From Candidatus Poribacteria bacterium (GTDB lineage: Bacteria; Poribacteria; WGA-4E; WGA-3G): a stretch of DNA of 64,000 bases. A model generated the notes under the pieces. It worked only from the letters and a program-made list of their open reading frames with translations. It had not been told where the DNA came from and made no database searches. Positions within the stretch are counted from its first letter, which is position 1, and every line of letters begins with the position of its first letter. This document shows positions 25,704 through 30,708 of the stretch, one piece after another. The position numbers and the translations under genes were made by a program. The stretch lies in NCBI GenBank assembly GCA_022824265.1, contig JAJEAG010000052.1:1-64000 (forward strand), written 5' to 3'.

Positions 25704-28499
25704 CTATGACTCTGTATTTTCAAAACGGAGAACACCTTGGTGTTCTGTGCCAACATAAAAGGTATCTCCATCAACAACAAGAGAAGTGATTGGATCAGGT
25801 ATTTCAGGTACAATTTGTTTCCATGTTCCTGCTGTTCGATCCAAAGTATATATTCCTTCATCGTTTGCCCCATATACAGAAAACGTCTCTGTAACTAACG
25901 ACTTGATAATTACACGCTCACCGTTTTCATTAGTAATAACCTTCCAATTGACACCGTCAATTGAACTAAGTACACCTTCATCGGTTGCAATATAAACTGT
26001 TGAACCTACAAACATTATTTGGTTATATCGTTCAACAGACAACGGAAGATTTGAAGTCACATCAATCCAACTATCACCTCCATTTGATGATAGAAAGAGT
26101 TGTCCATCACGTTTACCAACGTATACTGTCTTATCCAAAACAGCGAGTTTAAACCCGTGGGACAGGTTGTCATTTGTGAGTTCACCAGTTTCTTCAATAC
26201 CAGTATCAATCCACCATGTATCACCTGGTTCCCATCGGTAAAGCTTATAATTGTATTCCATAAAGACAGTTTCACCACTGACAGCGAAGTTCCCATATAA
26301 GCCTTCCAACATTAATTCATAAGCGAGTTGATAATCATCATCAATGTTTTTCAACTGCTTTAAAAAGCATTTTGCTCCAAATTTTGGATCCTCCAAAATC
26401 TCCTGTTTTGTTAATTCATCAGGTTCGCTCCACGGATGGGTAGAGAAAGTGATTAACAAACCTTGCCCTGGATGCCTATCGCTTTCAAAGGGAAAAGTAG
26501 TATTTCCAAAAACATGCCACATTAATGTTCCTGTATCTAATGAAGGAATCATTTTATCATCTGGAATAAAGCCATCAAGTGGAAGGAAATATGGTTCATC
26601 GGGAGCAATGCGATAAAATCCTGTTTCATTATTACGACGAATGACCTTTGCATATAGATATCCATCATTTTGGGATATTTCCACAATCTTCGGTGTATAT
26701 TCTCTAAATTTTGTTTTTACACCTAAGTCTGGAATTGTCTCAGTTCCCCTTTTCAAGAAAATTTCGACAGATTCCCACGAATCACCATTGTCAATTGATT
26801 TGACCAAACTCCCTGCAACCAATGCATACAGTGTTGTGTGTTGCTGGGAAGCATTATCTGTCTTGAGACTAATTAGATTATCAACACGACATTCAAACCT
26901 TGTGTTGAATCTATGCCATGTTCTACCCCCATCTGTAGAACGATGAATGCCAGTAATTCCACCAGTATAGAATGTGTTTTTATCCACAGCTGCCGAACAT
27001 TTAACACTGAACTGAATTGGTGTGATACCGGATGACTCTTCGGTCTCCCAATTATCTCCAGAATCAATGGTACGTGCGACAACACCTTCTTCATCACCTA
27101 TTAGTAATAGTGTGTTTCCAGATGCAAGAAGTTTTATTTCTGGAAGAGTCTTCATTCTCTCACGAACATCTGTTGGAGTAATATCGTTCCATGAATTGCC
27201 CTTATCTGTTGAACAAAATACCCACCAAGATTGTCTTCCTTCCTTCCCTAACTCAAGATAATTCTCAGAAGGTGTTCCGTTACCTTCCAAGATATTTACT
27301 GCGACTGCAACAAATATCTTGTTATCCATTTCTACTAAAGAGCAAACATTTACAGTAGCGTCAACTGGTAACTGAAGATGTTCCCATTTGTTCTCATGAC
27401 ATCGGTATACACCCATAGATGTTCCAACAAAGAGCGTGTCTTGACAGATTCTTAAAGATTTGATTCCAGCTTTTTCTTTCAAAGTGCTTTCCAATCCATC
27501 GTTCATCTTTATCCATGATTTGCCATTATCACTGGATCGAAAAATACCTTCATTCAGTGTTAAGTAGAAAGTGTCATCTGTAACGAGTAATTCCTTTACA
27601 TGTCCTTTTGGACAAGGACCAATTGAATTCCATGTTTTACCATCGTCGGTTGATGAATACAATTCATCGGATGGGATAATATAGAGTTTGCCATCATATT
27701 CAGCAATTGGTATATCACCGTTAGTTTCTTGATCCAAAATGTCAGTATTTACAAGTTGCCAAAAATTATCGCCAGCAGATAATTTGTAAATGTTCTTGTA
27801 TCCCACCACTGCATAGAGTGTTTTTGACGAAGTGACTGAAAGTGTTCCTACTGAAGCTACAACACCGGGTTCATTCATTTGTATCCACTGCATAATATCC
27901 TCCGTCATTTTCTCAGGTATTTCAAAACCACCTAATGTTTCACGTACCATCAATTCTTCCTCCTTCAATCGGTTTCTTGCCCGATGAAGTCGACTTTTTA
28001 TTGTATTCAATGTAGTTCCCAAAAACTCACTTATTTCTTTACAAGGCATCCCACCCAGATAGTGAAGTGTTATGACAGTTTGTTCATTCTCAGGCAATTT
28101 ATTGAGTAGTTTTTTTACAACCTCATGCCGGTTTTCATTGGATAACTCTTCACGTTCATTTTCAAGATAATGTCTATAGAAAACTCTTTCTGCTTCAGCT
28201 TCAGGTAAAGCCTCAAGTGATTCCATTGGTATATGTGTTTTCCTAAAATTCATATAACAACAATTCTTAGCGATTGCATGTAACCATCCAGCAAAACGGT
28301 TTGGATCCCTTAATGTATACAGTTTTTGATAGACATTTAGAAAGGTATCCTGTGTTATTTCTTCAGCAAGATGGAAGTCTCCCAACTCACGCCAAGCGAA
28401 TGCATGCACCTGCTTTTGATACTTTTTCACTAAAGTAGTGAAAGCATCTTGATCTCCACTCAGGATTTGTTGAATAAGTGTTACATCGTTATTATTCAT
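25704..28499 (-). CDS. ECF sigma factor fused to a BNR-type beta-propeller
   Basis: A 931-residue protein. Residues 1-180 are a complete ECF sigma factor. Region 2 includes AFAWRELGDFHLAEEITQDTFLNVY and NRFAGWLHAIAKNCC. Region 4 includes LPENEQTVITLHYLGGMPCKEISEFLGTTLNTIKSRLHRARNRL, a helix-turn-helix for the -35 box. The remaining 700 residues are propeller blades with repeated Asp-box motifs such as STDDGKTWN, SSDNGKSWI, STDGGRTWH and SSNGGDSWI (eight clear copies). No membrane segment or signal peptide is seen, so the propeller appears cytoplasmic. It may sense a ligand or partner and replace a separate anti-sigma factor. The start has an excellent ribosome site (GAGGAG). The fusion is uninterrupted in one frame. 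Confidence 0.9.
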   Translation of the reverse strand: MNNNDVTLIQQILSGDQDAFTTLVKKYQKQVHAFAWRELGDFHLAEEITQDTFLNVYQKLYTLRDPNRFAGWLHAIAKNCCYMNFRKTHIPMESLEALPEAEAERVFYRHYLENEREELSNENRHEVVKKLLNKLPENEQTVITLHYLGGMPCKEISEFLGTTLNTIKSRLHRARNRLKEEELMVRETLGGFEIPEKMTEDIMQWIQMNEPGVVASVGTLSVTSSKTLYAVVGYKNIYKLSAGDNFWQLVNTDILDQETNGDIPIAEYDGKLYIIPSDELYSSTDDGKTWNSIGPCPKGHVKELLVTDDTFYLTLNEGIFRSSDNGKSWIKMNDGLESTLKEKAGIKSLRICQDTLFVGTSMGVYRCHENKWEHLQLPVDATVNVCSLVEMDNKIFVAVAVNILEGNGTPSENYLELGKEGRQSWWVFCSTDKGNSWNDITPTDVRERMKTLPEIKLLASGNTLLLIGDEEGVVARTIDSGDNWETEESSGITPIQFSVKCSAAVDKNTFYTGGITGIHRSTDGGRTWHRFNTRFECRVDNLISLKTDNASQQHTTLYALVAGSLVKSIDNGDSWESVEIFLKRGTETIPDLGVKTKFREYTPKIVEISQNDGYLYAKVIRRNNETGFYRIAPDEPYFLPLDGFIPDDKMIPSLDTGTLMWHVFGNTTFPFESDRHPGQGLLITFSTHPWSEPDELTKQEILEDPKFGAKCFLKQLKNIDDDYQLAYELMLEGLYGNFAVSGETVFMEYNYKLYRWEPGDTWWIDTGIEETGELTNDNLSHGFKLAVLDKTVYVGKRDGQLFLSSNGGDSWIDVTSNLPLSVERYNQIMFVGSTVYIATDEGVLSSIDGVNWKVITNENGERVIIKSLVTETFSVYGANDEGIYTLDRTAGTWKQIVPEIPDPITSLVVDGDTFYVGTEHQGVLRFENTES

Positions 28500-28690
28500 A
28501 AGTTTCTCCTCTATGAAATTCCCTTATGACACATGATGCAATCAAAGTGCAAAAGGTTGCATAAAATGTATTTTTCTGTAGATTTTTATACTATCGGAAA
28601 ATTTGAGATAAAGAAATGTGGGAGTATGGTAATAACAAGGAATGAGACTACATTATGGAATATCTAAGGGTGACGACAGAATACTAAATA

Positions 28691-29311
28691 TCATAACGAG
28701 CGATATAAGGATTGTGCTTGTTGATAATCCTCTGGAGTGTTGATGTTGAAAAACGAATGTCCTTCAGAATCATAATTTTTCCAGACATCTGGAGACAGAC
28801 ACAGTACATTTGCCCGTTCTTGTAGTGCGTGAACGCGTAATTCAGATTCTTTCAACATTGATTTAATAATAGGTAGGCAACGTTTGGAATACACTGCACA
28901 TAGTGTTTGAAGGGTTAACTTATTAATATTGTGGTTTGATGTACTTTTGTTATATGTATAGGGCATTACGGCATCGTATTCACCTATGATAGAGATGAGA
29001 TAAGAGATCAATTCTTCTTGTAGAAATGGAATATCGCACCCTACACAAAAAGATACTTCATTTGTGGCATGAGTCAAACCCGTATATATACCTCCTAATG
29101 CCCCGCAATTTGGAATAATATCACGATGCATTGGTATATTAAGATGCGCATATTCATCTGGACTATTGGTAATCAGTAATTGTTCTGTAGTAAAAGGGAG
29201 TATTCTTTGTAATACATGTCCGATAAGAGTACCATTTCCGAGACGCATTAAAGCCTTATTTTGTCTCATCCGACGACTCTTTCCTCCTGCTAAAATAACT
29301 CCAGTTACCAT
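28691..29311 (-). CDS. mobA: Molybdenum cofactor guanylyltransferase
   Basis: Attaches GMP to molybdopterin to form the guanine dinucleotide form of the cofactor; 206 residues, normal for MobA. The N-terminal GVILAGGKSRRMRQNKAL is the nucleotide-binding loop. NCGALGGIYTGL and VGCDIPFLQEELI (metal-binding Asp) follow. Its ATG overlaps the end of the upstream sulfatase gene (the bases ATGGTAA are shared), so the two are translationally coupled. No other cofactor genes are in the window. A sulfite-oxidase-like molybdoenzyme lies at 55.4 kb, but that family normally uses the cofactor without a nucleotide, so the client is probably another enzyme. Confidence 0.9.
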   Translation of the reverse strand: MVTGVILAGGKSRRMRQNKALMRLGNGTLIGHVLQRILPFTTEQLLITNSPDEYAHLNIPMHRDIIPNCGALGGIYTGLTHATNEVSFCVGCDIPFLQEELISYLISIIGEYDAVMPYTYNKSTSNHNINKLTLQTLCAVYSKRCLPIIKSMLKESELRVHALQERANVLCLSPDVWKNYDSEGHSFFNINTPEDYQQAQSLYRSL

Positions 29312-30708
29312 ATTATTGATTCTTTATTCTTCTCTACAAGTCTTGGACCGTATCGACTTTCCATTAATTTTCGTAGTTCTTCAACGAGTGCGCTTTCAGT
29401 TTCTGCAATATTGTTCAATTCATCAGGATCATCAACAAGGTTATACAACTCAACGAATCCGTCGTTACTCTCAATTAGTTTATGTGTGTGTGTCCTTATA
29501 CAAGTGAAATTTGCCAACCGACTGACAGTCTCTGAACGATGTTTTTCAGTTTCACCCCGCAGCACAGGTGCGATAGAACGTCCATCTATATTGTCTAACA
29601 CAGGGACACCTGCCATATCACAAATTGTTGGATTCAAATCAATCAGTTCCACTAATTCATTAGATGTACGGTTCCCCTCAATACCCGGACCCGCTACAAT
29701 AAGCGGCACCCGTAGCGAAGCTTCATACGCAATGCTTTTTGTATAACATCCGTGATCACCTAACATCTCACCGTGGTCGCTTGAATAGATGATATATGTA
29801 TTCTCAAGCATACCGCGTTCTTCCAAAGCAGATAACATATTACCAATCTGATCGTCAATTAGTTCTGTTGCAGCACAGTACTGTTGTCGAGTGACTTTAA
29901 CTTCTTCAGGAGTAAGATTAACTGTTCGTTTTTTTACCCACTCCGGCTTTCCTTCCATGTCATCTATGATAGGTTCAGGCATGTCAGCATTACGATACTT
30001 GTCTCCATACTCAGTGGGAGGATCAAACGGGTCGTGTGGTCCTACAAAACTGACAAACATGTGCCATGGGAAGTCATCAGGTATATTTTCAATAAATTCG
30101 GTTGCGCGCCTACCGATATATGAGTCCTCAAAATCCTCAGTTGGTAGCACAGAATCATGCGAACCGTTTTTTATCCATCCTCCTGATGAACTACGATTAC
30201 GGTAATCTTGATGGAATTTCTCCAATAATCCTTTTTCATGGAGATAGTTTGTGTAGGGACCAATTGGTGTTGGAGATCTTCCAGCATGCATTTTTCCTTC
30301 ACATTCTTCCGGATGTGTGAATCCCCAACTGTACGTACGAGGTCTATCACCGTATCTTCCATTATAGCCAATTGGTTTTGCGAGATCCAATTTACCTACA
30401 CAACCTACACGATAACCGTGATCCCGCAGCTGCTGATAATATGTTGGTATGGTGGATGGCAGAAAACTACCGTTGCTCAATGATCCCAAGCGCGATGGTT
30501 GTATTCCAGATGCTAAACCAATCCGAGACGGGGCACAGACTGGTGCATTGACAGTACAGATCGGAAAATTCACTCCCATTTTTGCTAATCTACGCATATT
30601 AGGAGTGTTGAGTGCATCAGGTGCATTTTCATGTGTTTCCACATAATCGTACCGATGTTGATCAGACATTATGAAAAGGACATTTGGTTTGTCAGTTTTT
30701 CTATTCAT
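29305..30708 (-). CDS. Type I sulfatase (formylglycine-dependent)
   Basis: A 467-residue arylsulfatase-superfamily enzyme. PNVLFIMSDQHRYD gives the first metal-binding Asp. CAPSRIGLASG has Cys58 in the C-x-P-S-R motif, which is converted to formylglycine. YSSDHGEMLGDHG holds the second metal site. There is no clear signal peptide, so it may act in the cytoplasm or be exported by another route. Sulfatases of this kind remove sulfate from algal or animal polysaccharides and are abundant in marine polymer degraders. The gene is the first of a two-gene unit with mobA. Confidence 0.92.
   Translation of the reverse strand: MNRKTDKPNVLFIMSDQHRYDYVETHENAPDALNTPNMRRLAKMGVNFPICTVNAPVCAPSRIGLASGIQPSRLGSLSNGSFLPSTIPTYYQQLRDHGYRVGCVGKLDLAKPIGYNGRYGDRPRTYSWGFTHPEECEGKMHAGRSPTPIGPYTNYLHEKGLLEKFHQDYRNRSSSGGWIKNGSHDSVLPTEDFEDSYIGRRATEFIENIPDDFPWHMFVSFVGPHDPFDPPTEYGDKYRNADMPEPIIDDMEGKPEWVKKRTVNLTPEEVKVTRQQYCAATELIDDQIGNMLSALEERGMLENTYIIYSSDHGEMLGDHGCYTKSIAYEASLRVPLIVAGPGIEGNRTSNELVELIDLNPTICDMAGVPVLDNIDGRSIAPVLRGETEKHRSETVSRLANFTCIRTHTHKLIESNDGFVELYNLVDDPDELNNIAETESALVEELRKLMESRYGPRLVEKNKESIIW

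Follow-up and report, generated by a model that had tools for sequence, protein, structure and literature searches.

Background

Signalling through extracytoplasmic-function (ECF) sigma factors usually involves separate proteins for the sigma factor, the anti-sigma factor and the sensor. C-terminal extensions that regulate the sigma factor are described for ECF41 and ECF42-type proteins, and IutY (ECF243), SCO4117 (ECF52) and ECF48/53 are membrane fusions of sigma and anti-sigma (PMC8999054). Fusions of a sigma factor to WD40 repeats are found in cyanobacteria (PMC11119718) and, with ECF sigma factors, in Planctomycetes (PMC8567305, which cites Jogler et al. 2012). No paper linking Poribacteria with extracytoplasmic-function sigma factors was found in the literature searched, and the Poribacteria single-cell genome paper does not mention sigma factors. 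Here we describe a gene that joins an ECF sigma head to a long beta-propeller in a 64,000-nucleotide stretch of the genome of a sponge symbiont, Candidatus Poribacteria (GCA_022824265.1, contig JAJEAG010000052.1, positions 1 to 64,000), referred to below as the window.

Gene and domain architecture

The gene and its parts are located as follows in the window:

25704-28499 (-): sigma-propeller fusion gene, 931 aa (ORF, Pfam, same-architecture homologues in 40 genomes)
28236-28499 (-): ECF sigma region 2, residues 1-88 (PF04542 at 23-88; pLDDT mostly 70-89)
27954-28121 (-): ECF sigma region 4, residues 127-182 (PF08281 at 127-178; SigW 5wuq match)
27852-27953 (-): linker, residues 183-216, with the conserved helix 'MTEDIMQWIQMNEPG' (alignments, structure model)
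25719-27851 (-): tandem Asp-box beta-propeller of about 14 blades, residues 217-927 (Pfam, AlphaFold2, Foldseek, Asp-box count)
26289-26579 (-): variable helical insertion between blades 9 and 10, residues 641-737 (helices 657-664 and 698-734 in the model)
26061-26288 (-): blades 10-11, residues 738-813, with motifs MEYNYKL and VYVGKRDG (invariant columns)

An earlier note on this DNA had described an ECF sigma factor fused in frame to a propeller, and the gene bears this out: it is a single uninterrupted ORF of 931 codons with an ATG start and no internal stop, and the Pfam domains lie where that description placed them. Sigma regions 2 and 4, said to be complete within residues 1-180, were recovered as Sigma70_r2 at residues 23-88 (E 5.7e-13) and Sigma70_r4_2 at residues 127-178 (E 2.1e-16), and the NCBIfam model TIGR02937 matches the head above its cut-off (E 1.5e-26). 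As in other ECF factors, sigma-70 regions 2 and 4 are the only ones present, in a head of about 180-200 residues; residues 9-180 match the SigW structure 5wuq (E 1.7e-20), and the likeness to SigW/RpoE is kept along the head. The predicted sigma factor would bind core RNA polymerase and start transcription.

Matches to the propeller models Sortilin-Vps10, DUF6242 and PSII_BNR span residues 238-917, PF15902 and PF19755 scoring above cut-off, while no WD40 model matches the protein at E <= 1 in Pfam, so that the models found are of the Asp-box kind only. Seven strict Asp boxes ([ST]x[DN]xGxxW) are present, against 0.02 expected in the shuffled protein, with three degenerate ones at residues 653, 846 and 885; the boxes recur in successive blades, as in BNR/Sortilin/YCF48-like propellers. 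Structure prediction, which the earlier note had proposed as a check, gave an AlphaFold2 model (built on 94 family sequences; mean pLDDT 82.6, pTM 0.73) with resolved sigma helices and a propeller mostly at pLDDT 85-96. A strand count on this model yields about 14 blade units in the beta region 217-927.

Conservation is uneven along the protein. Linker residues 187-203 have pLDDT below 50 and are predicted to be disordered, and the linker has a conservation score of 0.77. Blades 10-11 are the most conserved blades in helix-bearing paralogues (see below) and among the most conserved in the soluble clade to which the window gene belongs, with scores of 0.87 in the soluble clade vs. 0.58-0.66 in the membrane paralogues. 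The first propeller half and the insertion vary more among paralogues, the insertion being the least conserved stretch of the propeller region. As a guess, the conserved blades 10-11 may form an internal contact common to the family, and the variable remainder a binding face that differs between its members.

The protein was also said to lack a membrane segment, and its best 19-residue hydropathy is indeed only 1.36, compared to 1.8-2.7 in helix-bearing paralogues. No zinc-binding anti-sigma domain was detected by Pfam. A hidden membrane helix or anti-sigma domain was therefore rejected, neither being found by Pfam, hydropathy or alignment.

Conservation and genomic neighbourhood

A frameshift or assembly join near codon 190, named by the earlier note as a possible source of error, was rejected: G+C content by codon position is regular across codon 190, and homologues are present in one-contig genomes (G082, G084; chromosome OX639973.1). 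The concern that the architecture might be a rare artefact did not hold either, as 40 of the 85 genomes searched in the phylum carry genes of the same architecture (identity of at least 50% along the whole protein), all within one family and in some genomes as neighbouring pairs. Mean column identity is 75% among 21 soluble homologues. The sigma-propeller fusion is confirmed as a genuine conserved gene.

Two genes upstream of the fusion accompany it:

28691-29311 (-): MobA-like nucleotidyltransferase, found beside the fusion in most genomes (sequence-based assignment of function)
29305-30708 (-): formylglycine-type sulfatase with a CAPSR motif (conserved synteny; motif in the translation)

Of the genomes with long enough flanks, most retain the order sulfatase-mobA-fusion. 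Both genes are conserved neighbours of the fusion. No anti-sigma gene adjoins the fusion, whose neighbours are the mobA-like gene, the sulfatase gene and a convergent MerC-like gene.

Convergent with the sigma-propeller gene, a small His/Asp-rich protein, a TonB-dependent receptor and the MerC-like protein are encoded in a row (window:22114-25433(+)), probably a metal uptake cluster. Elsewhere in the window, a selenocysteine tRNA is predicted at window:39990-40083(+).

Membrane-bound paralogues and the location of the propeller

About 25 further genes in the window's own genome share the sigma head at 47-56% identity, with tandem arrays on contigs C15 and C47. In most of these paralogues, region 4 and a conserved linker are followed near residue 220 by a strong transmembrane helix, and the protein continues into a homologous propeller or another domain. 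Such a helix, the hallmark of ECF52/IutY-type fusions, is found in 101 of 141 full-length relatives and is absent from the other 40; the window protein lacks it, as do all 21 soluble genes of the closer alignment.

Some membrane sigma fusions have outer parts other than propellers (L062:16180-18279(+), L070:9111-11303(-) and L063:6714-8870(+)), with C-type lectin, M16 peptidase-like and carboxypeptidase-regulatory-like domains.

Cysteine content differs between reducing and oxidising compartments, and the contrast can serve as their signature. In the C-terminal part, the median cysteine content is 1.17% in soluble proteins vs. 0.13% in helix-bearing ones; the comparison is drawn from related sequences, and its P-value is not a clean test because the relatives share ancestry. 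The sigma heads of soluble genes are also richer in cysteine (median 3 vs. 1). Most simply, the propellers behind a helix would lie outside the cytoplasm, in an oxidising compartment. Near-absence of cysteine behind the helix is what would be expected there, and the window propeller is therefore most likely cytoplasmic, a location which the earlier note had assumed and which both the missing helix and the normal cysteine content back.

Exchange of heads and propellers

In the sigma tree the 17 rows of the window clade form a single, fully supported group, and four other soluble rows make up a second group that stands apart. In the propeller tree all soluble propellers fall into one clade, within which the propeller of a helix-bearing protein (L092:5843-8938) is nested beside a soluble one. 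The sigma head of this protein groups with helix-bearing heads, which indicates that heads have been exchanged on the same propeller type. Similar long hybrids were recognized by match pattern in two more genomes (G068 and G075). Heads and propellers recombine as modules, and the single helix-bearing propeller inside the soluble clade shows that the state can change by head exchange. Both trees are unrooted, and the change may have been a loss or a gain of the helix.

Promoter and probable autoregulation

Alignment of upstream regions revealed the following elements before the fusion gene:

28534-28564 (-): ECF-type promoter with -35 TGCAACC (28555-28561), 15-base spacer and -10 GCATCA (28534-28539) (upstream alignment)
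28522-28530 (-): second conserved block GTCATAAGG, immediately after the -10 (upstream alignment)
28506-28510 (-): ribosome-binding site AGGAG (sequence; GGAG or similar kept in relatives)

The sequence before the gene (window 28534-28564) reads TTATGCAACCTTTT-N11-GCATCA. Its -35 element has the AAC motif that an ECF factor is expected to have before its own gene, and TGCAACC is identical in all 20 aligned upstream regions. In soluble homologues the second block (GTCAtAAGG / GTCACAAG) follows the -10 and resembles the -10 core; its role may be that of an additional -10, of an operator or of the initial transcribed region.

A scan of 140 family genes (threshold score >= 11 of 13) found a two-block ECF-type promoter before all 40 soluble genes and 64% of the helix-bearing ones, compared to 1.2% of shuffles. 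The -10 is YATC or TGTC in soluble genes and CGTC in helix-bearing paralogues, and the soluble promoters form two subtypes, one with a spacer of 15 and YATC, the other with a spacer of 15-16 and TGTC. Subtype and head type agree in each of the 40 soluble genes, six of which have a propeller of the other group, although this joint inheritance is partly plain linkage because the promoter adjoins the head.

With up to three mismatches allowed, the window version of the promoter has one match in the 4.45 Mb genome, before its own gene. That the sole match precedes the gene itself implies self-activation, and we infer, with good support, that the window gene is positively autoregulated, with the reservation that a promoter adjoining the head would be passed on together with it in any case. 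A consensus search for a wider regulon gave no convincing new promoter-gene pair: the strict window-type pattern matches only its own site, and a loose one has 9 matches vs. 4 in the reversed control, the others lying mostly inside open frames or without a following gene. In the vicinity of the homologues, nearly all such sites precede sigma-propeller genes, the exceptions being a few weak AGCAACC or isolated matches. With no additional target promoter coming up, the data give no support to a conventional regulon.

The pattern with helix-type spacing has eight matches in the genome and none in the control, five of them before sigma-fusion genes. A stricter version has five matches, four directly before sigma-fusion genes and the fifth at C15:106088. 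The latter is followed, in the same direction, by genes for a secreted 279-aa protein, a 251-aa protein and a 440-aa membrane sigma fusion (L173:2085-5367(+), G000:C15), in what looks like an operon ending in the sigma fusion. The 251-aa protein shares 44% identity over 126 residues with the outer domain of the 440-aa sigma protein, a likeness that suggests local target genes related to the sensor.

Other sigma fusions in the genome

ECF heads in the same genome are also fused to DnaN, an S9 peptidase, WD40 repeats, and FtsZ plus DNA polymerase III alpha. A 1347-aa frame (L076:1600-5643(-), G000:C38) combines an ECF-like sigma head with FtsZ and DNA polymerase III alpha (PHP, NTPase and finger domains). 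Seven genomes of the genus carry this FtsZ-DnaE fusion complete or almost complete (relatives in G009, G002, G004, G003, G005 and G001), while sigma-FtsZ alone occurs in G006/G007 and sigma-DnaE alone in G012; genomes with the fusion also have separate ftsZ and dnaE genes. A second frame, of 576 aa, joins an ECF sigma head to a complete DnaN sliding clamp (L074:5348-7078(+), G000:C76) and is found in three genomes, with relatives in G009 (97%) and the one-contig genome G010 (65%); separate dnaN genes exist besides it, on C42. An S9 prolyl-oligopeptidase-like protein with a fused ECF sigma head (L074:8579-11389(+), 936 aa) is encoded downstream of sigma-DnaN, an ABC-type permease-like gene separating the two. 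A sigma head of a different type precedes many WD40 repeats in a 901-aa protein (L066:4184-6889(+)) like the planctomycete ECF-WD40 proteins.

These fusions are perhaps stranger than the propeller finding, and those with DnaN and FtsZ-DnaE may be decoys, signalling the state of the respective machines or an attack on them. It is conceivable, though we regard it as rather doubtful, that sponge-symbiotic Poribacteria follow a general sigma-fusion strategy, in which self-activating ECF heads are placed on unrelated domains (tandem propellers inside and outside the cell, DnaN, FtsZ plus DNA polymerase III alpha, peptidases, WD40), each polypeptide would monitor or mimic a cell component and drive its own expression, and heads, propellers and promoters would be reshuffled as modules.

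Proposed mechanism and alternatives

We lean towards reading the window gene as a single-polypeptide, autoregulated ECF pathway in the cytoplasm, the propeller being sensor and regulator at once and apparently responding to a signal from within the cell. The DNA-binding sigma head (regions 2 and 4) would be tied by a flexible linker to the tandem propeller, which would serve both functions. In most relatives a helix in the linker would keep the propeller on the outer side of the cytoplasmic membrane, whereas the propeller of the helix-free window clade would act in the cytoplasm. When no signal is present, the propeller and the conserved linker helix would block productive engagement of the sigma head with RNA polymerase, and binding of a cytoplasmic ligand or partner protein would free the head. 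The holoenzyme would then fire at TGCAACC-N15-GCATCA before its own gene in a positive feedback loop, and perhaps also at other, weaker sites. Cytoplasmic location and self-activation we infer from the data above; autoinhibition and release by ligand are argued from analogy only, because ECF41 and ECF42-type extensions are known to work in this way (PMC8999054).

A second reading, which we consider unlikely, dispenses with the sensor: the head would mainly switch on and amplify synthesis of the domain fused to it, and the propeller would be an effector or scaffold with no wider regulon. The window promoter having its only good genomic match at its own gene would fit this, as would the result of the loose pattern (9 matches vs. 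4 in the reversed control, the others mostly in frames or without a following gene). Heads of this kind are also joined to a peptidase, DnaN and FtsZ-DnaE, which by their look are working parts and not ligand sensors. However, degenerate targets escape a consensus search, the genome is estimated to be 96.66% complete, so that part of the sequence is missing, and at least one relative probably does have targets, since two additional genes follow a membrane-type site next to its sigma gene.

The disordered stretch of the linker also invites a view of the propeller as a tether or degradation tag, with cleavage in the linker setting the head free, as in IutY/ECF52-type fusions; the membrane-bound relatives are indeed laid out like sigma-anti-sigma fusions activated by intramembrane proteolysis (PMC8999054). 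We hold this to be quite improbable for the window clade, which lacks the membrane helix that such proteases cut and whose linker is more conserved than a bare spacer would need. The soluble clade might instead be a functionless by-product of the shuffling by which heads and propellers recombine, and a close soluble copy is missing from some genomes of the genus. This explanation, to which we give very little credence, is already disfavoured by the frames kept open in 40 genomes, the high column identity, the invariant promoter and the conserved neighbourhood.

Under the preferred reading of a self-contained, self-regulated sigma factor, the whole ECF path would be held in one polypeptide, with about two dozen copies per genome. 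Homologous propellers with and without a membrane helix, and the same propeller type under different heads, offer a natural comparison and make the effect of a fused sensor on its sigma factor directly testable, together with the change of signal on a move from outside to inside, and whether a sigma factor can have itself as main target.

Comparison with known systems

Sigma factors with C-terminal regulatory domains and sigma-WD40 fusions are already known. As far as the literature was searched, the Asp-box tandem propeller on a sigma factor, the pairing of membrane and soluble forms, the copy number and the modular exchange are undescribed.

The window protein resembles ECF factors with a soluble C-terminal regulatory domain in that sigma regions 2 and 4 are followed in frame by a soluble domain with no anti-sigma gene beside it, but its extension consists of about 700 residues of tandem Asp-box propeller, and none of the extensions found in PMC8999054 is of the Asp-box kind. 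The extension is an in-frame C-terminal domain conserved across species, like regulatory extensions in general, and by analogy it may alter sigma activity. With the ECF-WD40 proteins of Planctomycetes and cyanobacteria it shares a sigma head, a C-terminal beta-propeller and many young paralogues, the propeller being of the Asp-box family and not WD40.

Foldseek searches with the window propeller returned GH74 xyloglucanases first (E 3e-20), followed among solved structures by the sensor domains of BT4673 and BT4663, all tandem propellers of similar total length. GH74 enzymes have two seven-bladed propellers in a characteristic arrangement, with catalytic aspartates. TM-scores against GH74 are 0.34-0.42; since they are below 0.5 despite good E-values, the two propeller halves are not arranged as a whole like those of GH74, BT4663 or BT4673, and the protein is better assigned to the general tandem Asp-box kind than to a demonstrated copy of GH74. 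Unlike the Bacteroides hybrid two-component sensors BT4663 and BT4673, it has no kinase.

The membrane-bound paralogues have the layout of IutY and ECF52 fusions (sigma factor, one transmembrane helix, extracytoplasmic sensor), from which the window clade differs by having neither the helix nor a zinc-binding anti-sigma domain by Pfam. These paralogues are also comparable to the RsgI/SigI systems of Clostridium thermocellum, where several paralogous membrane sensors control sigma factors (PMC12203970); there, however, sigma factor and sensor are two proteins, whereas here they are one.
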